A DNA stretch of 33,956 nt from Jaapia argillacea MUCL 33604 (taxonomy: Eukaryota; Basidiomycota; Agaricomycetes; Jaapiales; Jaapiaceae), in NCBI GenBank assembly GCA_000697665.1, contig KL197788.1, forward strand, positions 14,450-48,405, written 5' to 3'. A program made the position numbers and the translations under genes. Of the stretch, positions 8,111 through 25,324 are shown piece after piece (position 1 is the first letter of the stretch; each line of letters starts with the position of its first letter). The notes beneath the pieces are model-generated. The model saw nothing but the letters and a program-made list of their open reading frames with translations, did no database searches and was not told the DNA's origin.

Positions 8111-8637
8111 CTATGACTTCACCAGGCTCTTTCCCCAGTTCCAAGCAGTGGCACTAACTTTGTTTTTCCCATGGGTGGACTTCTTCTCATTTGATTTGCC
8201 AGACTTCACAGAACAGTGAGGCTTCTTCTCCTTAGATCCGCCAGCCTTAGGAACACGTTTTGCTAGTGGCTCAGCTAACTGCTCCCCAGCTCATTTCTTG
8301 GTCTGGTTTGATTGGCTTGGTCTGGCAGCAGGTTCCTTAGCAGGCTTACTCCCCTGCTGTTCCTGATCCGTCTTCAAATCGGATTTTGCTGTGCAAGACT
8401 GAGTCACCTTCAGACTGATGTTGGTAGATTGTGCTATAAGGGTGTTATATCAGTCACATTCCCACACTGTTCAGCTATCTTGACCCAATAGTAATGTCTA
8501 GCAGACATTGCATATCGACCCTTGTTAATGTGCCAGTGGACCTTGGCTGACAGGTGTCCGCTGCCTATTACGATTCCTGAGGAACGAGGAAAGAATTGTT
8601 TATCGCAAAATTTCAGATTGAGACAACTCGCGACCAC
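8111..8637 (-). pseudogene. Broken Lys-rich hypothetical gene, cut by the hairpin-array unit
   Basis: On the minus strand a 67-codon frame (8637-8434) encodes an aromatic, His-rich segment (ARHYYWVKIAEQCGNVTDIT). One base out of frame, a Ser/Lys/Gln-rich tail runs to a TAG at 8111, itself containing a TGA. The first 20 or so residues (8571-8637) lie inside sequence that is repeated at 12137-12200, the left end of the T1/T2 units. The true 5' part of the gene therefore seems to have been replaced or cut at about 8565. I cannot assign a function. A frameshift between the two frames is the simplest reading; a short intron is the alternative. Confidence 0.4.
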
Positions 8638-9559
8638 CTTACTGCGTCAAACACTCTCACGGACTTTGTCTCACGGTTTCACTTGAATTGACTGTGAGAC
8701 CGTTGTTTATTATTGCTGACGTCAGGGTGCCTGTTCCCACACTCAGTTGGGATCACAAGTTTTCGCCGCGTGTCGTTTTGGTCTTCATTTTCTCTGGGTG
8801 TCACAAGTGTGACACTGCTCATCCGACGACTACAGACCCTCCCCTCCTTTCTTTTCTATCACATTCACTTCTATCCTCCATTTTTACTGTTCTTATGACT
8901 TTTTTCAACTCCCAACGATCCCCAACGACCCCTTCAAGTAACCAACGCTTTTTCAATCCGAGCAGCCAAACCTGCCTAACAACCAACCACCCTACCCCCC
9001 TCCCCTAAGAAGCACTCATGCAGCCTCTGCGGCAGCCTGGGTGTTCTCTTTTCGATTTCTTATCACTCCCATGACCCAAAAGACCGTATCGCGCCTACAC
9101 ATGCCTGCCTCCTGACCCACAAACTCAAGCCAGCCCAAACCCCCTCAGCCACCACTCCCCCCTCAAAATTACAGAGCGCCGGCCTTGTGAGTGACCAAAC
9201 ACCGCCGAAAATACCTAGTAAACCACTCAGCAGGCCATGCAAAGCAGTTGCTCTTTGCTCGGCATCCGTTGATTCACCCAACACAGACCCACTCCCTCCC
9301 CAACCTATCAACCTCGCAATCACTACAAGAGCAATTGCAATTGGTTATTTACTCAAATGTACGACCCCACACCACTCATGTGAACCGGTGCCCTAACTGA
9401 GGGTGCTGGTTTTGCTCAGACTTTTGACTTCGCGCCTCACCATCCAACCCCACCCCTCCTCGAGTCAAACCTCCTCACGTTCGATCAAAATGGCATGTGT
9501 TTGCTATTAGGATGTAGGGAAGGATCTAGGAGGGTCACAGGACAGGTCCACAGGCCCAT

Positions 9560-9620
9560 GTAAGTAAAAAAAATCGATTCTAAATATTACATTGACTAAT
9601 TCGCTTTTTTCCACTTTCAG
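9560..9620 (+). other. Intron 1 of T1
   Basis: GTAAGT at the 5' end, TTGACTAAT as branch site 20 bases before the 3' end, a pyrimidine tract and CAG. At 61 nt it has the size of the introns in the protein genes of this window. Confidence 0.6.
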
Positions 9621-9767
9621 ACCTTTCTACCCACCCCACCACCTCATCCCCACCTTCCATATCCACTCCTCCATGCTGCAAGGCAGACCCGTCACCCACC
9701 AGCCCATTCAAAACACCCCAAACCACCCACAAGCCACCCCTGCCAACCAACCCCCCCACCTTAGATC

Positions 9768-9798
9768 AAGTCAGGCTGCCTCCACAGCAGTCTGACTT
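9768..9798 (+). ncRNA. Conserved stem-loop A, exon 2 of T1
   Basis: Arms AAGTCAGGCTGC and GCAGTCTGACTT pair over 12 positions with one G.U. Homologous stem-loops occur at 10360-10392 and 15064-15096. Across the three, individual pairs change between U-A, U.G, G-C and G.U while the helix persists. Confidence 0.5.
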
Positions 9799-10151
9799 TA
9801 TTCTATCACTCTAATGACCCCAAGCGACCCTATTGCGCCAACACACACTTGTCTCCCAACCCGCAAACTCAAAATTGGCCCCACCCCTTCCCCTCCCTTA
9901 CCACCCTCGCGAATGCTTTTATAGTGATCGCATTGGGTTATTTCTTGCCTCAACCACCATCCCACACCTCACACCAACCGGCGCCCTCACTGAGGACGTT
10001 GGTTTCATTCCATATCTCGACTTCGCGCGCCACCACCCAGTTCCCTCCCCTCTACTCAAACTTCCGCGCCCTCGTCCTAAACGAGTCGTGTTCATTGTAG
10101 GACTGTAGTGAAGGGTTGAGAGGAGTCAGAGGACAAGTACCTGGGTCCTCG

Positions 10152-10210
10152 GTAAGTAAATATTTGATTCTAAACATTATATTTACTAATTCGCTTTTTT
10201 CCCCTCTCAG
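10152..10210 (+). other. Intron 2 of T1
   Basis: GTAAGT, TTTACTAAT branch site, pyrimidine tract and CTCAG; 59 nt. It is clearly the same intron as 9560-9620 (shared TTTGATTCTAAA-like and TAATTCGCTTTTTT blocks), as expected if the exon-intron unit was duplicated in tandem. Confidence 0.6.
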
Positions 10211-10359
10211 GCCTTTCTACCAGCCCCACCACCTCATCCCCACCTCCCACAATTGACCCAATACGCTGCGAGACAGTGCCACCATCCACAGGCCAATTCG
10301 AAGCACCTGAAGCCACCCACATGCCCCCCTTACCCCCCACACCACCCCCTCTCCCAGAT

Positions 10360-10392
10360 CAAGTCAGGCTGCCTCCACGGTGGCCAGACTTG
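10360..10392 (+). ncRNA. Conserved stem-loop A, exon 3 of T1
   Basis: CAAGTCAGGCTGCC pairs with GGTGGCCAGACTTG: 13 of 14 positions, two of them wobble, around a TCCAC loop. The single A.A mismatch is an A-U pair in the T2 version (15064-15096). Confidence 0.5.
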
Positions 10393-10505
10393 TTTCTTTT
10401 CGACTGTCTATCACTCTCACAACCCCACCAACCCTCTCCCACCACCAGCCTCGTCTCAACCCCCCGCAAACTCAACTTCGGTCAACCTCACCTCCCCCCT
10501 CCTTC

Positions 10506-10545
10506 GAACCATCACAAACGCTGCAAGAGCATTTGTGAATGGTTC
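10506..10545 (+). ncRNA. Conserved stem-loop B, exon 3 of T1
   Basis: GAACCATCACAAA pairs with TTTGTGAATGGTTC over 13 positions with one bulged A. The T2 version (15211-15248) keeps 12 pairs with the bulge in the same place, using U.G and G.U where T1 has C-G and A-U. Related stem-loops sit at 9310-9346 and 11110-11144. Confidence 0.5.
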
Positions 10546-10753
10546 TTTCGTCTTATTTCTGACTATCTGCATCTTAGAAAGCCAACCTGTGCTTTGCGCC
10601 ATCGGTTTCATTCCGATTTTCAACTTCGCGGCTGTCAACCTCCCCCCTCCAATCTCGACGCGAACACCCCCACGCTCGCATTTCATGAAGCACGTTCAAC
10701 TTAGGAAGGTATGGATTGCTAGGAGAGTAGAATGTAGAGGTCAGGGCCCCAAG

Positions 10754-10821
10754 GTAAGCAAAACAAATTGATGGTTTGTTAGTTTTTTACTTAATCGCTT
10801 TTTTTCGCTTTTTGGGACTAA
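10754..10821 (+). other. Intron 3 of T1, weak 3' end
   Basis: GTAAGC donor and a pyrimidine-rich end homologous to the previous introns. The expected AG is GG here (TTTTTGGGACTAAG), so splicing would have to use the AG at 10820-10821. In T2 and T3 the corresponding site is TTTTAG and TTTTTTAG. Confidence 0.4.
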
Positions 10822-10863
10822 GTACCAGCCTCACAACCCTACCCCTACCCCCATCTATCACTC

Positions 10864-10881
10864 CAGCACCACGAAGTGCTG
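10864..10881 (+). ncRNA. Conserved stem-loop D, exon 4 of T1
   Basis: CAGCAC and GTGCTG close a CACGAA loop. In T3 (16978-16995) the arms are CAGGAC and GTCTTG: the fourth pair has changed from C-G to G-C and the third to G.U, so pairing was kept through a double transversion. T2 (15572-15589) keeps five of the six pairs. Confidence 0.55.
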
Positions 10882-11025
10882 CCTCACCACGAGCAAACCC
10901 TTTCCCAGTCCCCCAATGAATCAGACACCACACCCAACTCACCCCCTCCCACGAACGACCCAAGCAGCCACACCGGCTGCTTAGGTTGTTTGTATTTGAC
11001 ATCTCAATCTCCTGCAACCCGGACG

Positions 11026-11057
11026 ATGCAGAACACAGCTGTAGCTGTGTTCTGTAT
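11026..11057 (+). ncRNA. Conserved stem-loop E, exon 4 of T1
   Basis: ATGCAGAACACAGC pairs with GCTGTGTTCTGTAT over 14 positions (one G.U) around a TGTA loop. The T2 version (15742-15773) keeps 11 pairs. It replaces one C-G with U-A and the G.U with G-C. Confidence 0.5.
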
Positions 11058-11180
11058 GACCATTTCTTCGACGCCAGCCCTCGACTTCATCCTCCCTCCC
11101 CCGACCTAGCCAGTCACGATCACATCAAGAACGATCGTGATTGGTTCTTTGTGTTCTCCAAACCCATCCCCACCTCATCC

Positions 11181-11211
11181 GAGACTGATGCCTACCCTCA
11201 GCATCGGTCTC
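11181..11211 (+). ncRNA. Conserved stem-loop C, exon 4 of T1
   Basis: GAGACTGATGC pairs with GCATCGGTCTC, 11 of 11 positions with one U.G. Earlier exons carry the equivalent at 9383-9411 (12 pairs, three wobble) and at about 9978-10006. The T2 version near 15879 is weaker (about 9 of 12). Confidence 0.45.
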
Positions 11212-11330
11212 CTCCCCACCTCCAACTTCTCGCCTCGTGACCAAGTGCACCTCTCTCTCCCCTCAGGTTTCAAACAAGACCGGTGATACAGCTGCTTCAA
11301 TAGTGGCTGTATTTATTACTTTGAGCTATG

Positions 11331-11422
11331 GTAAGTAGTCGGACATCGCGTTTGCGATGCCCATTCTCTTTTTCTCATCTATCCAAGTATACGGACTTAT
11401 TCCATTTCAATTCCTCTCACAG
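11331..11422 (+). other. Intron 4 of T1 with internal stem-loop
   Basis: GTAAGTAG to CTCTCACAG, 92 nt, present at the same place in T2 (16027-16107) and T3 (17226-17317). All three contain a 9+9 nt stem-loop with the same GTTT loop directly after the donor (11341-11362 in T1). Confidence 0.6.
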
Positions 11423-11468
11423 AATACACCCACCACCCTCCCCTCTCGTCACCACCACATGCCGTTAG

Positions 11469-11498
11469 AGTGGAGCAGGGCTTCGGCCTTGCTCTGCT
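11469..11498 (+). ncRNA. Terminal-exon stem-loop with UUCG tetraloop (T1)
   Basis: AGTGGAGCAGGGC pairs with GCCTTGCTCTGCT over 13 positions and is capped by TTCG closed by C-G, the exceptionally stable cUUCGg tetraloop. In T3 (17370-17399) the closing pair is U-A with a GTCA loop, and the outer U.G has become U-A. In T2 (16154-16183) two G.U pairs have become A-U. It lies 46 nt into the terminal exon. Confidence 0.6.
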
Positions 11499-11624
11499 AT
11501 TCTCTATCCCCCTCCAAGTCACCTTGCACCATATCAATGTGGTGCGAGGGTCTTTATGTTCTTCTATTATACTTAGGCAGTACTATTATATGTACTTTGT
11601 TGTAACTTAGGTAGTATACAATCA

Positions 11625-11630
11625 AATAAA
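11625..11630 (+). terminator. AATAAA poly(A) signal of T1
   Basis: AATAAA is followed by TGTTTTATGA. The same position holds AATAAA in T2 (16328 and 16333) and T3 (17545), after the shared phrase TATGTACTTYRTYRDAGCTT-like and a small AGTAC/GTACT hairpin. Confidence 0.5.
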
Positions 11631-11718
11631 TGTTTTATGATTCCCAGTTGCACCACACAGCACAAGTCCATAAGCGAGAGACGGGTATATAGAGCAATAA
11701 ATGCAATAAGATTTCACA

Positions 11719-11794
11719 GCATAATGGTCTAGTGGTGAATATGCCTCATTGTGTGTTGATGCTGTGAGTGAGGGTTTGAACCTTGGCTATGTCA
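11719..11794 (+). tRNA. Degenerate tRNA-like sequence, possibly the head of a SINE
   Basis: TGGTCTAGTGG fits the pol III A-box consensus TRGYNNANNGG exactly. About 45 nt downstream, GGTTTGAACCT is a C-to-T-like variant of the B box. The ends pair weakly (GCATA with TATGT). No convincing anticodon arm forms, so this is not a working tRNA. T2 has no counterpart: sequence before (to about 11683) and after (from about 11915) is contiguous in T2 at about 16384, so T1 likely received an insertion of roughly 230 bp here. No target duplication is evident. Confidence 0.35.
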
Positions 11795-11914
11795 GGCATT
11801 ATTTATATGTGGTAAATCTTTATTTTTGCCTTGATTGTCTTTCCACTTTTTTCCACCAAGTCAACTGATGATGAACTTGAATATCACACAATGTGTATGA
11901 TTATGTATGCCTGC

Positions 11915-12136
11915 AAAAAGCAAACCTGTGCAGTGTCATACAACAACTTTCAACATGAATTCCACCAAGTCTTACATGAATGTTGGCACAATTTGACATC
12001 ATTTTCAAATGCTTTTTCTAGCATTAGGGCTGCCTAATTCTTACAGCTCAACTTGCTGCTTGACTCAATTGCCCAATTCCACCCTAATGGGGTATTGTCA
12101 CTGTCAGAGAAGTGGTTGTGGCTAAAGTTATGATTC
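11915..12136. other. T1 downstream flank
   Basis: 11915-12025 is still homologous to T2 downstream sequence (about 16385-16455), so the duplicated segment extends past the poly(A) signal. The remaining bases up to the T2 5' block show no gene or repeat that I can identify. Confidence 0.4.
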
Positions 12137-12343
12137 TCAAGGAATGAGAAAAGAATCATTGATTGCAAAATTTGAGATTGAGAACACTTGCAACCACCTT
12201 ACTGTGTCAATTTTTCTCACAGACTTTGTCTCACGGTTTCAGTGCATTGACCATGAGACCATTCTTTATTATTGCCCATTTCAGGTTGTCCCTTTCTACA
12301 CTCAGTTGAGATCACTGATTTTTGCCACATGTCACCTTGCTTT
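12137..12343 (+). ncRNA. T2: 5' block of second hairpin-array copy, CpG-decayed
   Basis: It aligns base for base with 8571-8780 of T1. Most differences are C-to-T or G-to-A at former CpGs: T1 CGCGACC is TGCAACC here, and GCCGCGTGTCG is GCCACATGTCA. The block ends exactly at the target-site duplication GCTTT of an inserted LTR element and resumes at 13895. Confidence 0.55.
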
Positions 12344-12538
12344 TGTTGGAACAAACAGTGCATTGTTCCTGCATTTAGCTAGAGTAGGGAAAACTCATTG
12401 TAAATGTGTAAGGTACAACCACAGGAATACAGAAATTATATACAAAATCCCCCCCCCTCTAGCTATGACTCACTCCTGAGGCGGCGTCCCGTAGCCTCGA
12501 GCTCCCAACACTTGCAGACCTGATTTCCAATTCCCACA
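12344..12538. repeat. LTR 1 of the TRIM-like element
   Basis: 195 bp, TG..CA, with a C9 run near its middle. It keeps CpGs where LTR 2 has CpA or TpA, for example GGCGGCGTCCCG here versus GGCAGCATCCTA. Confidence 0.8.
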
Positions 12539-12896
12539 CACTCCCTCGAGTGGAGTGGAGCTCGACATCAACACCAACATCAACAGCAATAGAGAAAGAA
12601 AGAATTCCATCACTGAAAACAGCACTCCCTCAAGCAATAATTTCTTGAGCCCTCAACATCCAGCCCAATCTGACAGTCCAACAACCTCTCAACTGCATCT
12701 TGGCAATGCATCCACCCCTCCTCAACACCCAATTCCAGCTCTGACATCCAAACGGGGTCCATGCCCAGAGGCTCTGACCAACAAATCTTAGGCAACGAAA
12801 GAGTGTGATGGCAACATACAATGATAAGGGATTCAGCCCTTGAATGGACTCTGCAACAATTCAGCTCTCAACAAGCGACAGCAACAACAACAAGGG

Positions 12897-13374
12897 TGTT
12901 ATGAGTGCCTTAGTGTTAGCGTAAGGTAGCGAATAAGGCTTGTAAGTCCTTTGGGTATTTCTTGCTAACTAGTACTCAGGCTATGATGTTGAAGAGTAGA
13001 GGATGACGATGAGGGAGCGAACCGGTTGAAGGATACAACTAAAGTGCTGTATTGTTCAAGTGGACAAGCTACCGAATACAAAGTAGCTAGGTGTCCTTAT
13101 ATACTACAGGAACAATGAAGAGTCGAACAATGTACTATGGACAATAACAAGTGAGACAATGTATTTGTACAATGGCGAACGAGTTAAGGTTTGAGACAAT
13201 GACGAAGAACAATGATGAGGCTGTACAAGGCTGTACAGGATCTGAGATAAGATAAGATAAGGATGAGTCGTACTGGGTATCATAGACAAGGGAAATGATA
13301 CTAAGACGAATGAAGTCTGAGGAAAATACAAACAATACAAATGGAAATATACAAGTCCAAACGTGTTCACAACA
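12897..13374. mobile_element. Solo LTR nested inside the TRIM-like element
   Basis: A 478-bp block starts TGTTATGAGTGC and ends GTGTTCACAACA, imperfect inverted ends with TG..CA. It is bordered on both sides by AAGGG (12892-12896 and 13375-13379). No internal domain is present, so it is read as a solo LTR left by recombination of a larger element. It contains a TATATA-like box (13097) and a short GATAA repeat near 13247. Confidence 0.75.
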
Positions 13375-13697
13375 AAGGGAACTTGGCCTTCAACAGGCAA
13401 ATGACTTCAGTTAGCTCATCTTGGTGACAGCAACAGGTGGTGACAATGACAACGGTACGGTACGATGGTGATAACGATATGGTGGTGACAGCAATTGGAT
13501 ATTTGACTCTCCTGGGTGGATACAAAGTGTGGCAGCAGGTAGATAGAGTCAATAGCGATGAATAATAATATTTGATCTGACTAGTGCGGTGATGACAAGT
13601 GATTCAACATGTGACAATGAACAAAGTTGCAGCGAGAAGATGGATTTGGTCCCATCACAAACTGCTTGGTAAGACCCCCAAGCAGGCAACACATTTA

Positions 13698-13894
13698 TGT
13701 TGGAACAAACAGTGCATTGTTCCCGTGTTTAGCTAGAGTAGGGAGAGCTCATTGTAAACACATGAGGTACAACCACAGGAATACAGAGATTATATACAGG
13801 ATCCCCCCCCCCCTCCAGCTATGACTCACTCCTGAGGCAGCATCCTATAGCCTCAAGCTCCCAACACTCACAGACCCAATTTCCAATTCCAACA
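13698..13894. repeat. LTR 2 of the TRIM-like element
   Basis: 197 bp, matching LTR 1 over its full length, followed directly by the target duplication GCTTT. Confidence 0.8.
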
Positions 13895-13899
13895 GCTTT

Positions 13900-14849
13900 T
13901 GTTTTTCTATGTACATCACATGTGTGATACTTCAATTGTTTGTTACCTTGGGCACCTTCTCTGTTGCTCTTGCTCCTGTTGATCTTGTTCTGAACACTAC
14001 CTTCCCATTGTCTTTGAGAATATGGCTCACACTTTTAATTCAGTTGGTTTAACTGTGAGTTTGGATGACATGATTGGTGATGGTGTTATCATGCCCACCT
14101 ATTGTCAACTTAGGCAATATCAGATTGTCATATGTTTTATATATTATATATTTATATGTCTTTACATCTGACACAGTGACTTCAAGTGGATTGGCACCAT
14201 GCATGTGTTCAAGCTCACCCAGCATTGAGTGCTTACAAGTGGTCTCTCAAACTTATTTCTCTGGAACAATACTGATATAGGCTAGAGAAGGTGTATCAGT
14301 CAATCAAAGTAAACTACATTGGGTGGCTGCAAACAAAATAAGATTCGGCTTTTGATTTGAATCAAGTACTTCTGGATGGATATGGATTTAAATGATAGTA
14401 TGAATAAGTCAATTGAATGGATGGATGTGAGTGAATAAGGCCCATCACAACAAGCCTTCCCTCCAACCAGTGTACAGGTTAGTGGTATTGTATGATTGAC
14501 TTATTGAGAGAAATGAAAACATTTAATTTGGCAGCATATGCTTGGATGCTACAGATAAGCATGGCATCCAAGTCATCCCACCATTCTGGAGTGGTTGTTG
14601 GGAAAGACCGTAAACTAAAGTAGCTACAACTTCAATGGGAATAAGAGTTAGTTTCTGACTTCAATCAAGCAAACACTGACTGAATAAGATGGAATTGAAT
14701 CCTCTGTCTGATCATCTGTCTGGAAACCTCTGATAGTCTCTCATCCTCTTGTCATTCTACTTCTGCAGCTGTAGCCTAGGTAACATCAGAGAAGCTTCAA
14801 AGTCTTACATCGTATACTTTGTTGAAGTAACAATCTTAACAGGTCCTTA
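13900..14849. other. Unassigned AT/TG-rich stretch inside T2
   Basis: 13900-13950 continues the T1-homologous 5' block, including a stem-loop with ATCAC and GTGAT arms where T1 has GTCAC and GTGAC. From about 13950 to 14830 the sequence has no T1 counterpart, is poor in CpG and rich in TpG/CpA, and shows no convincing frame. It looks like a decayed insertion that I cannot identify. An AT-rich near-palindrome lies at about 14130-14162. Confidence 0.4.
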
Positions 14850-15063
14850 GTAAGGAAAACTTTGATTCTAGGCATTATATTTAGTAATTCGCTTTTTTTC
14901 CCCTTTCAGGCTTTTCTACCAACCCAATCAACTTATCCCCACCTACACCAATCACTATAACACACTGCAAGACTACCATCACCTGCTGACCCATTTGAGA
15001 CACCCAAAGCCATACACAAGCCCCCTGCCCCCCCTGCCCCCCACCACCTCCCTCTCCCAAGTA

Positions 15064-15096
15064 CAAGTCAGGCTGCCTCCATGGCAGGCTGACTTG
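15064..15096 (+). ncRNA. Conserved stem-loop A (T2)
   Basis: CAAGTCAGGCTGCC pairs with GGCAGGCTGACTTG at 13 of 14 positions around TCCAT. It uses U-A and G-C where the T1 exon 3 version uses U.G and G.U. Confidence 0.5.
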
Positions 15097-16153
15097 TTTC
15101 TTTTCGATCCCATATCACTCTTGGGACACATGCCAACCCTCTCCCACCACCAGCCTTGTCCCAACCCCTGGCAAACTTAACTTTAGCCAACCCAACCTCC
15201 TCCTCCTCCAAACCATCATGAACACCACAAGAGCATTTGTGATTGGTTCTTTCATATCATTTCCTACTACCCCACATCCTACAAAGCTGATGTGCTTTTT
15301 GAGCCATCAGTTTCATTCCAATTTTTGACTTTGTGGCCCTCAATCACCCCCACTCCAATCTCACCTTAATCGCCCTCACTCTCTTCATTAATGAAGTGTG
15401 TTCGACATACAGGAGTAGAGGGTAGATAGACAAGTAGGAGGACGAGGTCAGGGTCTCTTACAGTGGGTCAAAAAATTGACTCTTTGTTTCTTTTTTACTT
15501 ACTTGCTTTTTTCACATTTTAGGACTCTCTACCAGGCCAACAATCTCCCCTCTCATCTCCATCTACCACTCCTGCACCATGGAGTGCTGCCCCACCACCA
15601 GCCTACCCTTTCCCATCCCACAAACAAGTCCAACACCAACCCCATCTCACCCCCTGCCACAAATGAGCCATGCAGCCATGCAGCCACACCAGCTGCTTGG
15701 GTTATTTGTATTCAATATCTCCATCTTCTACAGCCTGAATGATGCAGAATTCAGCCATAGCTACATTCTGCAATGCCATTTCTTTGACGCTGGCCCTCCC
15801 CTCTTAGCTAGTCATGATCGCATCAAGAGCAATTGCAACTGGTTTTTTGTGTTCTCCACAACTGTCCCCATCTCACCTGAGACCAATGCCTTTCCTGGGA
15901 ATCAGTCTCCTCCACATCCCTGACATCTCACATCACACCCAAGTCTGCCCCTCGCCCCTTGGGTTTTGGCCATGACCCATGATACAGCTGCTTCAGTAGT
16001 GGCTGCATGTATTACTTTGAGCTATGGTAAGTACTTGGACATCATGTTTGCAATGTCCATTCTAATTCTCTCATTTATACCTCATTCTGTTTTGATTCCT
16101 TTCACAGAATACACCTACCACCTTCCCCTCTCGTCATCACAACACACTATCAG

Positions 16154-16183
16154 AGTAGAGCAAGTCTTTGGCCTTGCTCTGCT
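16154..16183 (+). ncRNA. Terminal-exon stem-loop (T2)
   Basis: AGTAGAGCAAGTC pairs with GCCTTGCTCTGCT at 12 of 13 positions around a TTTG loop, at the same place as the UUCG hairpin of T1. Confidence 0.5.
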
Positions 16184-16526
16184 ATTCTCAATCCTCCTTT
16201 CACATCCAACTCTAAGTTACCTTACACCATATTGATGCAGCATGAGGGGTTCAATTTTATTTATGTTCTTCTATTATACTCTCAGTAGTACTGTTATATG
16301 TACTTCATTGTAGCTTAGGTAGTATGCAATAAAATAAATGTTGCATGAACCTCAGTAGCAGGAAATGGCACAAGTCTGTAAGTGAGAGATAAAAGCAAAT
16401 TTGTGCAGTGTCATATCACAACTTGAAGTCATTTTTGAATGCTTCTTCTGGCATTGTTTTCATAGGTATTCCAAGTGGTTTCCTGAGTGATATGTGAAGT
16501 GAATGGGTACCATTTGAACCAATGTG

Positions 16527-16775
16527 GACTGACTTGATGATACATAAGCCAACTTGACGATAATTGAATCAACTGGATAATACATACAACTCAATGACTT
16601 GTAAACGAACTCAGTGATATGTAAACTGACTTGGTGATAAGGGAGGTTACTCTATAATAAGTAAGTCAAGTCAATAACACATACAATGCAATACCTCATA
16701 AACCGACTCAATGATATGTAAGATGATACAATGATATAGAAACCAACTGATGCATAAACAAACTTGTACATAAAC
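16527..16775. repeat. Degenerate 20-bp minisatellite
   Basis: About twelve imperfect 20-bp units near CARTGATATGTAAACYGACT, for example CAGTGATATGTAAACTGACT, follow each other between T2 and T3. They hold no gene. Confidence 0.65.
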
Positions 16776-17235
16776 ACCTCTCCTCCAATCTCGCATCAAA
16801 CCACCTCACCCCTGTCTTCAATGAAGGGCGTTCAACACACAAGACTAGGGGATGGATAGAAGAGTAGAACTACAAGGTTAGGGCCTTGTGATGAGTCAAA
16901 CAATTGACTCTTTGTTTTCATTTTTTAGGACTTTTGTATAAGCTCAACACCCTCACCCCTACTTCCATCTACTACTCCAGGACTACAAGGTCTTGCCCCA
17001 CCACCACCATACCCATTCCCAGCCACGAACAAACTCAACACAATGCCCAGCTGGCCCCACCCCCTTGTGACTCACCCAGTCACAATCACATCAAGAGCAG
17101 TTGTGATTGGTCTTTTGAGCAACTTCTCACCTCCCAACCAAGTCCACTCCTCTCACCCATTGTTTCAAGCAAGACCAGTTACACAGCCACTTCAATACCA
17201 GCTATGTTTCTTACTTTAAGCTATGGTAAGTGCCC

Positions 17236-17257
17236 AGATGTTGTGTTTGTGATGTCT
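17236..17257 (+). ncRNA. Intronic stem-loop (T3)
   Basis: AGATGTTGT and GTGATGTCT pair at all nine positions around GTTT, with five wobble pairs. In T1 (11341-11362) the arms are GGACATCGC and GCGATGCCC with the same loop, eight of nine paired. T2 (16037-16058) keeps the outer six pairs. Confidence 0.5.
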
Positions 17258-17369
17258 GTTCTATTTCTCTCATTTATATAAGTATACTGACATATTCTGA
17301 TTTGATTTCTTTCACAGACAATTCCTACTACCCCCCTCCTTCTCTTGTCATCATCACACACACTGTTAG

Positions 17370-17399
17370 AGTAGAGCAGGGTGTCAACCTTGCTCTACT
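17370..17399 (+). ncRNA. Terminal-exon stem-loop (T3)
   Basis: AGTAGAGCAGGGT and ACCTTGCTCTACT pair at 13 of 13 positions (one G.U) around GTCA. Compared with T1, the closing pair changed from C-G to U-A and an outer U.G became U-A. Confidence 0.55.
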
Positions 17400-17599
17400 A
17401 TTCTCAAACCAGTCCCTACTCCCAACAAATCTAAGTCACCTTGCACTGTGTTGATACAGCACAAGGCTTTCAATTTTATTATGTTATTCTCTTATAGTTC
17501 AGTAGTATTGTTCTATGTACTTCATCAGAGCTTTAGTAGAATGCAATAAAAAATATGTCTTATGAGTCAGTGGCACGAAACAGCACATGTCTGTAAGTG

Positions 17600-18037
17600 A
17601 GAGATGTATCAATTATGCTGGCCCTGCTTCTAAAACTTTATCTTTCTTGTCTTTACTGGCTCAACCACTCATAAGTTTGATGGTGCTGCTACCCAAGTTG
17701 CAATAGAATTAGGTCAAAAAAAAGGGAATCGTTCATGCCACGCCATGCGGTGGCCCACTCTCTGACTAGTGATAATGTGCCAATGGCCATGCCATTGTTA
17801 ATGTATCAGCCAACCTTGTACACATACTATGTATCTCCAGAAATCAGATGCGGAATGGATTTCATTGCAGCTCCCAGGTTACGACACAGGAACAGCCGCA
17901 TTGACCTGCTCATCCGCAAGTGGGTTTGGACACTTGCAATCGTACATATTAGGCAGTTGATCACTCCGCATCCAGCCAGCACGCCATATAAGTTGACTCA
18001 GATGACCGAGATTGCTTGATCAATATCAACCACCAAC
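17600..18037 (+). other. Spacer between T3 and the tandem paralogues
   Basis: A 94-codon open frame (17735-18019) exists, but it has no recognisable motif, no paralogue before the second copy of the following family, and no clear splice context. I treat it as unproven. Confidence 0.3.
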
Positions 18038-21429: not shown

Positions 21430-24400
21430 CTACAAGTGATAATGGAGCTCCAGAGGGGGTGGATATGCTCTCTGAGTCTCCACAAATCGAGCATCAGCTC
21501 TATCAGCAAACATTTTCCAGGTGTGAGACTGTTGCGCGGCATAGCAAGAGTGACCTGAGAGGTCGGCAGCCAAGGCTGAGTCTGCTTGGGTCCGCCAGAC
21601 TGCTTCCTGCTGGCGGAAGAACCTCACAACCCAATCCATCTTGTGAATGAGTAGAGTGAATTCTTCCGCCCATCTTGCCCTCATAGCTCTCGCACACAAC
21701 CAATGGACCCAGTAAACTGGAGACTCTCAGCAATGATGCAAAACAACAAAGACTTACTCACAGTCATCCAGATAGTCGTTCTTCTCCTTCTCATCTGCAT
21801 TAGCGGCCAGGTTGACAGTCCAAAACCAAGCTAAAGTGTTTTGTCTTGTGCCGCGAGCGGCGGGATCATCAACAACCCCAGTGTGCATCTTCAGATCTTC
21901 CGGTTTAAGGTCTTTGTATTTCGCGAGTAGGTCCTCGTCGGCCCGTCCTCGTCCCATTGCCTTCCTACATTGTTTGTAAAGCTGGGAGTTCTTCTGCACC
22001 GTCGCCTCGACATGACCTACCTGGGACCAGGACCGTGTCTTTTTGCTTTGAGACTTGTTATGTCGAATCTCTGTGCGGTACAGGAAAGATTTATGGCCAA
22101 GTGCTATGTGAATTTGCTGCAGGAGATCATTTGCCTGTCCAATGCGAAGGCTCACTTCCTCCTCCAAAATTTCCTTTAAGCCTCAGTGAGCGCATTGGTG
22201 AAGTCCCAGAGTGGTTGGCAGGGATATGTGTCATTTTTAAGCATCGATTGGCCCATTGTCAGGGTTGGCTTGATCCTGAACTGCATCATAGTCAAAGTCG
22301 TCCTCCCAGAGAGCATTCTCATCCTCATCGAACACAATCTCATATTCATCTTCTCCAGCAGCACCCTCGGCATTCACACACACAATGCTGGGATCGTCGG
22401 CAGGCTCTGCATCGGGCAACGAGGCATCCTGAACAAGGTAGCGAGCTGCTGATCTTTCAAAAGTGTCAATTTGACCATCCAGCCTCCGCCTCCTTTCCTC
22501 AATTTGATTTAGTTGCTCAACAGTGGGCTGGCGACCCATCTTCCTGACTGCAGCAGCAAGTTCAACTCTGAAGAACGGTCAGCGTCGGAACCATGGAACT
22601 TGAATACACCGCACTGGGCCTCCTGGATTGCAATACCAGATGCCAACCAGCTTGCAGACCCTTTGATTGGAACAACTCTGCCTTCCTTCTGGGACAGGTT
22701 GTGTTGAATTTCAGACTGTGTTGGGGCTATGAATGTGTCAGGATTGAAGCAAGGCAGGCATAGCGGGATTAGTACCTTTTTTCATGATAGGCGCGTAAAC
22801 ATCCATGGCTGATACGTCGTCCTGACGGTTTTCGGCAGCGGCCTTCTCCATCTTTCTCCAGTTATGGACCTGTGTTTCTGTTGCGACACTATTGAGGTCA
22901 GCAAATGCCTCAGCACTTAGCCTAACGTGTTTGTGGGCTCTCTTCAACTTGCGACAGAGGGAAGAAACTGTGGGGATTCAATTGAGTGCCGCAAGATGAA
23001 TAGGTGCAACTTACCCATGCCGATTGTCTTTTGCCAATTAGAATTCAAAATATGGAAATCAAGCATCTCTGTGCGATGCCCATGGCCCATCGGCCAGCAA
23101 CTGACAGCGATTTCATTCAGCCTAGCCCACAGGGTTTCGATAACCTCTCCATCCACTTGACCAGCACTAATCATGTAATTTGGAGAGTACCTGAGTCTGC
23201 ATGAGTCTTGGTGACCATGAACATGGAAGAGTCCAATTCCCATAATCAAGTTGAGGGCTGATGAGAGGCCAAGGTATTGAGCATTTTCAAGGAACCTCTT
23301 CGTGACATGCACGCCATATTGACAAATGATGTCATAGAGGACCATAGTTGGAGTAATGCCAGGAATTTTGGTCAGGTTGAGAGCTTGAGCCAATATGTAG
23401 TCCATGTTGATTTGCCTATTTTGCATTGTGTAGCAGAGGTTTGGCAAGGTCAGAAGATACGCCCCTCACCTTTCCCCTTTTTGCAAGTTCACACAGGACC
23501 CAGGACAGAACCAACCATGTCGGGCACACACGACAGCAACAATGCTGGTGATCGCAAGGTGCTTCACCTGAGTATTTGCTTGACTTTGAGCCTTGTGGTC
23601 ATGACAAGTTGGTTTCTGCAAAGGGGGCCATCAACACCAGAATGACAGCTGCTTCAATAAAGCTTACCTGGGGTCATTCAACTGCTCCAGCAATGTACTG
23701 ATTGTACCGCGTATCTTCACACAAGAACAGGCTACCTCGCGTCAGGGGAAGGCCATCATCTGGATACTTGTGATGCATCTGCTCAGCTTTGAAGTTCCCA
23801 TCCATATTCAATTGCCGAGAGAAGAGCCAGGGTAATCTAAGGGAGATGACTATGTGAAGTTAAGTAGACACTGAACACCTCGCACCTTTCCGCCTCTTCC
23901 TCCCAATTGTCAGGCAAATTTACTCCCACCTGAGGACATGCCAGACAAAAGAGGGTGAGCTCTCCTGGACCTGGCTCGCGAAAGGGGCCATAGCCAAATC
24001 CCTGCCACTTGAGTGTCTTCAGGTGTCTCCATTGCCAAGAGCATCTCATCATCTCCCTGTAGCAATCCTTGAATCACAACAGTTAAGTGGCAATCATGAC
24101 AAGCGATGTACGGCGTACTGGCACAGTTTGAGGAAATGCTGGTCGAGTTACTCTGCAGAGTGTTTCATAGTACTCTTGAGTATTCATCTTGCATTCGACA
24201 TTATGCTGGGTGAAGTCATCCAGCACCTTGAATGTGAATGTGGTCGCAGGTCGTTTGACACTACCAGGATAAAGGCCCAAGTCTAGAAGTTGAATCGTCT
24301 TGTCAGCACAGCTGCAGAAGTTCATGGTCAGCTCGTGCACTCCCAAGGTGTCGACAACAATCATGGTTCGACCGCAAAGTTTGGGCCGCAGCCTGTTGAA

Positions 24401-25324
24401 GTTTGACTTCTCAGAAAGAAGAGCTTCATCCAACTCATCCCTCCAGTTTATTCCTTCCTCATCGTCATCATCCTCAACAACAAATGGATTGCTTTTGTCG
24501 ACAGGTGCTGATGGGTGACCCTCCATAGATCCTGCAAATCGAGAGGGCCCAGCATCTTGATTTGAATCACCTGGAATTTGTTCAGAGCTGGAAGGCATTG
24601 GAGGCACCGGCTGGGACTGATAAGGATCTTTATATCTTGCTGAAGATGCGTGTGGCTGCCGAAAGAGGTCATCGTCTGGAAAATGACATTGATTTGTGGG
24701 GCATATGGCTCCACCATGTCCCAAATGAATTTTGATCCCAAGGCTCGATAGCCAACCTGGTTGGAAAAGGCCACCCAACCATTGCTCCACCCGATGAAAT
24801 GGAAGATGCTGGTGAGCGGCGCGGCAACATGATGCACATAGCAAAGGTCTGCTGAGACAGTCGCCGCAGTGCCAGATTCCATCACCAGCACACATTACGC
24901 ACGTTCGCAGATCTGGGGGCGACTTTCCCTTGAGCAGTGTGTTCAGGAAGACTTCCCTGACGTCAAGCCACTCATGCATGAAATTGTTTGGAGTCTAAGT
25001 CTGACAATCAGGGAGCGTTACAGGCGACTTGCAATGACCACATACCTTCTGGGTTTTTCTCGGCAGAGGGAAGTCTTCGTTACTTCCCCCATAAGTCATG
25101 TCAAAGGGTGCTAGATGCAGACGTTGCGGGGTCCCCTGAGGTGTTTTGGAAGGTGTCCTAGGCTCTGGCAGTGGTTGCCTTGGTTTCAGCTGAATCCTGG
25201 CATCAACAATATGCTTGCAACAAATTCCATCCTTGTCAAGATAGGCTGAAATAGTCTTCTTCTTTGGTGTCAGATCAATATCATCGACATTTCGACCGCG
25301 TTTGGCAGGGGCGTGGGATCGCAT
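21430..25324 (-). pseudogene. KDZ-family transposase with CxC2 cysteine cluster (KDZ-1), decayed
   Basis: Exons (minus): 25046-25324, 24119-24994, 23886-24067, 23668-23836, 23470-23615, 23015-23415, 22776-22967, then from 22715 down to 21762 (borders less sure), and 21430-21716; introns are 45-60 bp. Domains in order: a basic N-terminus (MRSHAPAKRGRN), the CxC2-type zinc cluster (CVMCAGDG..CGDCLSRPLLCASCC, then GLFQPGWL and LGHGG), a CARHGWF half-site, then the RNase H-fold core with NMDYILAQAL, YDIICQYG, HVHGHQDSC and GEVIETLWARLN, and a long helical C-terminus. KDZ proteins are basidiomycete-expanded DNA transposases. TGA at 23674, TAA at 22237 and TGA at 22231 and 22183 break the frame, each explained by C-to-T in CGA or CAA. 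A DRY-to-DCY change (CGC to TGC) fits as well. An alternative start at 25426 would overlap the dioxygenase gene. Confidence 0.88.

Follow-up and report, generated by a model that had tools for sequence, protein, structure and literature searches.

Helitrons transpose as single-stranded DNA (PMC5148889), and fungal Helitrons with expressed cargo genes are known, for example the HELPO1 Helitrons of Pleurotus ostreatus, which carry captured genes (Castanera et al., 2014, PMC4289320). Reports of Helitron cargo usually concern captured protein genes or pieces of such genes (PMC4289320). Here we describe a single 9.2-kb insertion (positions 8568-17769, plus strand) in a stretch of 33,956 nucleotides from the wood-inhabiting fungus Jaapia argillacea MUCL 33604 (contig KL197788.1, positions 14,450 to 48,405; hereafter the window), which contains three diverged same-strand arrays of hairpins, T1, T2 and T3. 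An original prediction, made from the letters of the DNA, had read the arrays as spliced, polyadenylated RNAs without a protein product, built of hairpins on G-poor linkers, and had offered a long structured RNA, a multi-hairpin small-RNA precursor or a non-autonomous element as explanations. We consider it probable that the whole is a Helitron-like element with noncoding hairpin RNA genes as cargo.

There is little doubt about the mobile-element part of this explanation. In the genome that holds the window (43.7 Mb in 95 contigs, called C1, C8, C46 and so on), we found four empty sites, on C1, C56, C8 and C66, at which the left flank (8453- or 8463-8567) directly joins the right flank. The left flank matches 17 places, four of which also match the right flank, up to 18555 at C1 and as pieces of 41-71 nt at C56, C8 and C66. 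The aligned empty sites read [G/A]CTGCCTA^TGATAATG and lack a target duplication; they set the start of the insert at TTACGATTCC and its end at CTGACTAG. An 8-bp target-site duplication, inferred from overlapping matches, is ruled out by this alignment, and was apparent because the insert end CTGACTAG resembles the target CTGCCTAT.

Both ends of the insertion recur elsewhere. The 5' terminal module (8568-8837, plus strand, starting TTACGATTCCTGAGG), which probably also serves as promoter region, is present at 23 or more places in the genome and encloses a hairpin detected by the stem-loop scan (8668-8700, plus strand). Its 5' edge, TTAYNATTCC, is sharp in 18 of 18 aligned copies with differing flanks, all selected for containing the module. 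The 3' terminal segment (17607-17769, plus strand, GGGAATCGTTCATGCCAC...GTGGC...CTAG) finishes with a GCCACGCCATGCGGTGGC hairpin, 11 nt and then CTAG, which ends at 17769. This pattern of hairpin and CTAG was found at 7 genome places including the window copy, and at 0 in the backwards control. No terminal inverted repeats were seen at the very ends of the element. An asymmetric terminal inverted repeat of only 8 bp pairs ACGATTCC at 8570-8577 with GGAATCGT at 17725-17732; GGGAATCGTT, the inverted copy of the 5' end, lies upstream of the 3' end, and the hairpin then follows. On C82, the module interrupts a multi-copy gene at a precise point, with intact versions of the gene on C8, C15 and C40; here the 5' junction is precise, and the 3' host flank was not found behind the copy.

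We compared these features with the described Helitron types. As in canonical Helitron1 elements, the 3' end is a CTRR sequence behind a short hairpin and insertion takes place between A and T without target duplication (CTGCCTA^TGAT at C1, C56, C8 and C66); a T follows all 6 distinct 3' ends that were found without requiring one. The 5' end is TTAYNATTCC in the 18 aligned copies and not TC, and for this reason we do not file the element as a canonical Helitron1. The 8-bp asymmetric terminal inverted repeat is a property of Helitron2, or non-canonical, elements. Membership in the superfamily is further indicated by RepHel partners that share the 3' end: a RepHel gene on C46, with Helitron_like_N and PIF1 helicase matches, has the same 3' end directly after it, and a second, broken RepHel on C66 is followed by a 79% copy of that end. 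No RepHel was seen within the window element, and the 5' module was not found within 8 kb on C46. Because of the empty sites, the 3' end pattern and the RepHel with the same end, we concluded that a single Helitron-like element, itself non-autonomous, contains T1, T2 and T3, which agrees with one of the three suggestions made originally.

Direct repeats and a unit profile agree on the three diverged copies. T1 (8838-11660, plus strand), recognized by the unit profile, splice signals and hairpins, is an array of tandem exon-intron units with an AATAAA tail. As predicted, the unit is repeated four times in T1 (9276-9617, 9625-10204, 10215-10811 and 10823-11255), after a partial one at 8947-9193. 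T2 (12128-16360, plus strand) begins with a second element 5' end inside the insertion, at 12128, and continues with a chimeric 5' part and a hairpin body that has units at 14838-14904, 14914-15514 and 15528-15952. T3 (16770-17600, plus strand), seen by direct repeats and the unit profile, is a truncated hairpin body with units at 16774-16918 and 17050-17126. The observed-to-expected CpG ratio is 0.67 in T1, 0.13 in T2 and 0.12 in T3; T2 and T3 are CpG-decayed relics. By its matches T2 is a chimera, and it is interrupted by an LTR (long terminal repeat)-type element. The segments 12128-12343 and 13895-14175 match the 5' part of a protein-gene cargo described below. A third sequence type, found on C36, is 88% similar to 14173-14294, and the remainder matches it weakly and in pieces; a stretch on C23 is 90% similar to 14699-14841. 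The LTR-type element itself (12344-13894, plus strand, 1.55 kb) has LTRs 88% alike with TG...CA ends and lies between a 5-bp duplication, GCTTT, at 12339-12343 and 13895-13899. The inner part of this element also holds stretches present at other loci.

The arrays contain recurrent splice motifs. Their introns, some 60 nt long, start with GTAAGT and have a branch sequence of the CTAAT type, followed by a pyrimidine tract and CAG; a purine-rich stretch stands just before the 5' splice site. All three T1 introns named in advance (9560-9620, 10152-10210 and the last one, 11331-11422, all on the plus strand) are bounded by GT...AG, and the shared introns of the original prediction hold at the level of signals. 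A 5' splice site GT[A/G]AG is present in 29 of 33 units; of 38 3' splice sites, 29 are YAG when read by eye and 30 when scored by script. In the T1 intron that starts near 10754 the 3' site is lost, because the end TTTTTGGG replaces the usual TTTCAGG. The expected AATAAA is found in the tails of T1, T2 and T3, and the copy on C24 diverges upstream of that point.

The predicted chain of stem-loops on G-poor linkers is clearly present. We scanned 8561-11700 and found 14 strong stem-loops in T1, including the one at 8668-8700 in the 5' terminal module, compared with a mean of 0.7 and a maximum of 3 in 60 dinucleotide shuffles. This corresponds to 4.5 per kb in T1, whereas the flanks within the window have 1.1 and 0.4 per kb. 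The linkers contain 7-11% G and 35-48% C, and hairpins A, B and C are balanced in composition. These three classes occupy fixed unit positions, in exons; their arm sequences differ between copies, and stems are mostly 9-17 bp. On the plus strand of T1, class A hairpins lie at 9011-9045 (first unit), 9764-9802, 10360-10392 and 10951-10993, the last being the strongest of T1, class B at 10512-10538 and 11108-11146, and class C at 9382-9412, 9976-10004 and 11181-11211. Further hairpins on this strand are one with a perfect 14-bp stem (11026-11057), one in the 3' part (11285-11313) and two in the 3' exon (11469-11498, aligned in T2, T3 and the C24 copy, and 11522-11549). The idea that hairpins avoid introns is ruled out by intronic stems; the C24 copy, for example, has one with a score of 9.0 in its last intron. 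The covariance models of Rfam 15 gave 0 matches to the window at gathering score; at E up to 1 the sole match was sR53 (E 0.28, below the cut-off and on the opposite strand).

The cargo arrays are noncoding. In the aligned stretches of eight copy pairs, which span introns and some flank, only 23 of 160 indels are multiples of three. Stops occur in all six frames of 19 exons, bar one frame of one T1 exon, whether insertions are kept or not. The longest T1 frame yielded no homologous protein, and two T1 frames had no Pfam match. The claim that reading frames are not kept between copies therefore stands, and a noncoding structured transcript is likely.

Hairpin units are widespread in this genome. 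A search with 8500-11800 gave at least 74 genome matches (40 of 60 candidates scored), and the unit profile, run over part of the family sequence, gave 86 unit matches, 56 of them of 250 nt or more. Among 16 examined loci with hairpin units, 7 have the 5' module and 3 have the end of a different, inverted-repeat element; C58 has the inner part of the module only. A sister copy of T1, 87-89% alike, is found at C22:528901-538947 (L011, L012, L023) and is split in intron 1 by an 8.2-kb insert (approximate length), the ends of which are 92% similar to each other. Other cargo, too, lies behind the Helitron 5' module. One is an intron-bearing protein gene (MAHNFNSVGL...) with 16 genome matches, among them C82:42500-46500 (L038), 9 of the 16 being just downstream of the module. 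A search for this cargo protein among 5.8 billion proteins (31 candidates) returned a sole match, JAAARDRAFT_200980 of Jaapia argillacea, parts of which match C82 at 93-99% and whose family has no Pfam match. On C36, the third sequence type lies downstream of the module.

The arrays on C24 (438-443 kb), C27 and C35 are without the Helitron 5' module and have a different 5' end in common, (G)CATCAGCATTCTCACAAA, present at 8 places, one of them a short match. This second mobile family (C24:438385-443013; C16:122322-126396, L067) has ends GCATCAGSATTCYCACAAA, and in the C24 and C16 copies the inverted version at the far end makes an inverted repeat that is imperfect and about 27 bp long. We saw no target duplication of this element, and a tRNA suspected by eye in its 5' part was not found by ARAGORN. 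Hairpin arrays are present in 3 of 7 examined copies, with one weak unit match in C16. The arrays on C24, C27 and C35, the last two at C27:355146-358414 and C35:178100-181600, have the highest CpG content among the arrays, and perfect A and B stems occur in 4 of their 17 scored units versus 2 of 37 elsewhere; 3 of the 17 score below 0.6.

We then asked whether pairing is kept as the arms diverge. In an arm-swap test with 20000 permutations, the left arm was paired with its own or a foreign right arm; rows that had gaps or were identical were left out, and no filter for pairing was applied. Own arms formed more pairs than foreign ones in hairpin A (13.77 versus 12.77 of 17, n=30, 0/20000), B (11.49 versus 10.43 of 15, n=41, 0/20000) and C (9.00 versus 8.72 of 13, n=36, 453/20000). 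In MAFFT alignments (30/40 B+C rows and 29/30 A rows, all prefiltered for at least 60% pairing in A or B), cells changed on both sides numbered 70 versus 37.4 in shuffled alignments for B+C and 38 versus 20.4 for A, and the covariation score was 0.339 versus 0.251 and 0.262 versus 0.162, respectively (0/500 each). Paired cells fell from 84% to at most 45.5% when the pairing partner was slid. The exchanges in the two alignments included C-G to G-C (14 and 10) and U-A to A-U (16 and 11). G-U was slightly favored over A-C on this strand in all three hairpins (48, 27 and 38 of 2000; rows at least 65% paired, n=26, 33 and 23). RNAalifold gave no useful fold for the whole-unit alignment, in which many rows are fragments; from short alignments it recovered each of hairpins A, B and C in part, with low energy. 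Hairpins kept by pairing rather than by sequence would fit a multivalent RNA.

Several observations weigh against this explanation of element and cargo. The 5' end is non-canonical, with A, G or T as the preceding base among copies; the RepHel match on C46 holds three stops, and that on C66 has stops as well. Six of the 16 loci (C11, C23, C28, C7, C21 and C34) have no element end in the flanks examined, which on the upstream side of C7 comprised about 350 nt only. Thirteen other array stretches contain 0.7-3.3 strong hairpins per kb, below T1 and overlapping the 1.0-1.7 per kb of protein-gene cargo. Transcription, splicing and polyadenylation are read from sequence signals alone. All compared copies come from one genome, and the arm-swap permutations ignore relatedness. 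The two measures least inflated by relatedness were not significant, neither pairs changed on both sides (B+C 14 versus 11.9, 73/500; A 9 versus 6.5, 34/500) nor further pair types (B+C 37 versus 36.8, 297/500; A 20 versus 19.7, 272/500), and an all-pairs covariation test with a tree-based null gave no significant pair (best E 0.35). As CpG intactness increased, pairing rose only weakly, with rho values of 0.28 (p 0.056, n=46) and 0.23 (p 0.09, n=54). Finally, units differ in the orientation of the hairpin B loop, which reads CTACAAGAG in 4 units and, exactly inverted, CTCTTGTAG in 3 units. This is a footprint of template switching, a process that alone can create compensatory changes. The claim that base pairing is kept is upheld by the arm-swap test and the compensated cells and not by the stricter measures or the tree-based test. 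Because the two stricter measures were not significant, we lowered our estimates for the overall explanation and for selection on the RNA fold, and the latter now stands evenly balanced.

The main rival is that the hairpins are kept by mutation: template switching in DNA replication, frequent via single-stranded rolling-circle intermediates, would perfect inverted repeats and invert loops. This mutational process is described in PMC8794818. The loop inversions, with further near-inversions in B and one in A, speak for it, as do the stricter covariation measures, and because one loop occurs in both orientations we concluded that template switching also shapes the hairpins. As the sole cause it appears rather unlikely, since it leaves unexplained the G-poor linkers, the fixed positions of the hairpin classes, the small one-strand excess of G-U and the splice signals in most units. 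Decayed protein-coding genes could be suspected from the real protein gene behind the same 5' module elsewhere, and are very improbable given the indels not in threes, the stops in nearly every frame and the lack of a homologue for the longest T1 frame and of Pfam matches for two T1 frames.

Two further rivals accept the structure and assign it another role. The hairpins could serve as single-stranded DNA, folding the displaced Helitron strand during transposition. In DNA, as in RNA, a G-T (or G-U) mismatch is milder than A-C, which counts for this possibility. It gains from some stems being intronic and from the strong stems of protein-gene cargo, and Helitrons do move as single-stranded DNA (PMC5148889). 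Against this, the inverted-repeat element also carries hairpin arrays, T1 exceeds protein-gene cargo well in stem density, and A, B and C lie in exons; we regard this rival as improbable. The many hairpins in an inferred Pol II-type transcript would also suit a small-RNA precursor or an RNA-silencing decoy. A single Dicer product is longer than stems of 9-17 bp. We do not favor the precursor, one of the original suggestions, because most stems are of this length; arm sequences also vary among copies, and we give the precursor or decoy a poor chance.

Under our preferred explanation, a Helitron-like element with hairpin RNA genes, a RepHel protein from a full element with the same 3' end would move the element and the 5' terminal module would supply the promoter. 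The cargo gene would be a tandem array of exon-intron units of about 590 nt. Splicing would join exons with about three short hairpins each, on C-rich, G-poor linkers, into one long RNA with independently folding hairpins. Such a multivalent RNA would offer a binding protein the same stem-loop many times over, to the advantage of the element or as a by-product of its spread. A scaffold or sponge for a protein is the likeliest function, put forward tentatively. It is equally speculative that a class of transposon-borne structured noncoding RNA genes has moved between two unrelated mobile elements, a Helitron and an inverted-repeat element, and acts in trans via its repeated stem-loop, perhaps titrating a silencing protein or an RNA-binding protein of the host. 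A dispersed family of spliced-looking, protein-less hairpin arrays, held by pairing and common to both kinds of element, would represent cargo of a new sort. A single genome here offers dozens of naturally occurring variants of the three hairpins, with which mutation by template switching could be told apart from selection on the RNA structure; PMC8794818 raises this question.

Elsewhere in the window, a KDZ transposase (PF18758) with a CxC2 cysteine cluster (PF18803) at 22944-24994 on the minus strand marks a DNA transposon of the KDZ type next to the Helitron-like element. At 487-1118 there are four to five diverged repeats, centered on the motif ATGGGCCCA, and at 1798-2788 diverged repeats of 75-242 nt.

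The original prediction knew of no described fungal RNA or element with this architecture. This holds for the cargo within the literature searched, where titles and abstract openings among the matches listed mention no such RNA or structured noncoding cargo; it does not hold for the carrier, which is a known kind of element. The genes captured by HELPO1 are gene models, predicted at positions downstream of RepHel (PMC4289320), whereas the window element shows no RepHel and its cargo is a noncoding hairpin array. The non-canonical, Helitron2-like elements of Fusarium (Chellapan et al., 2016, PMC5148889) repeat their 5' end in inverted form 20-50 nt ahead of the 3' end. The window element has such a pair, ACGATTCC and GGAATCGT, 37 nt from its end, but differs from the Fusarium elements in its 5' start, TTAC, and in its 3' CTAG behind a hairpin, as in canonical Helitrons. 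For the RNA itself, the Xist A-repeat and the roX RNAs provide the closest models, with redundant short stem-loops and unstructured linkers in spliced, polyadenylated noncoding RNA. The putative hairpin RNA would be analogous to them in architecture.

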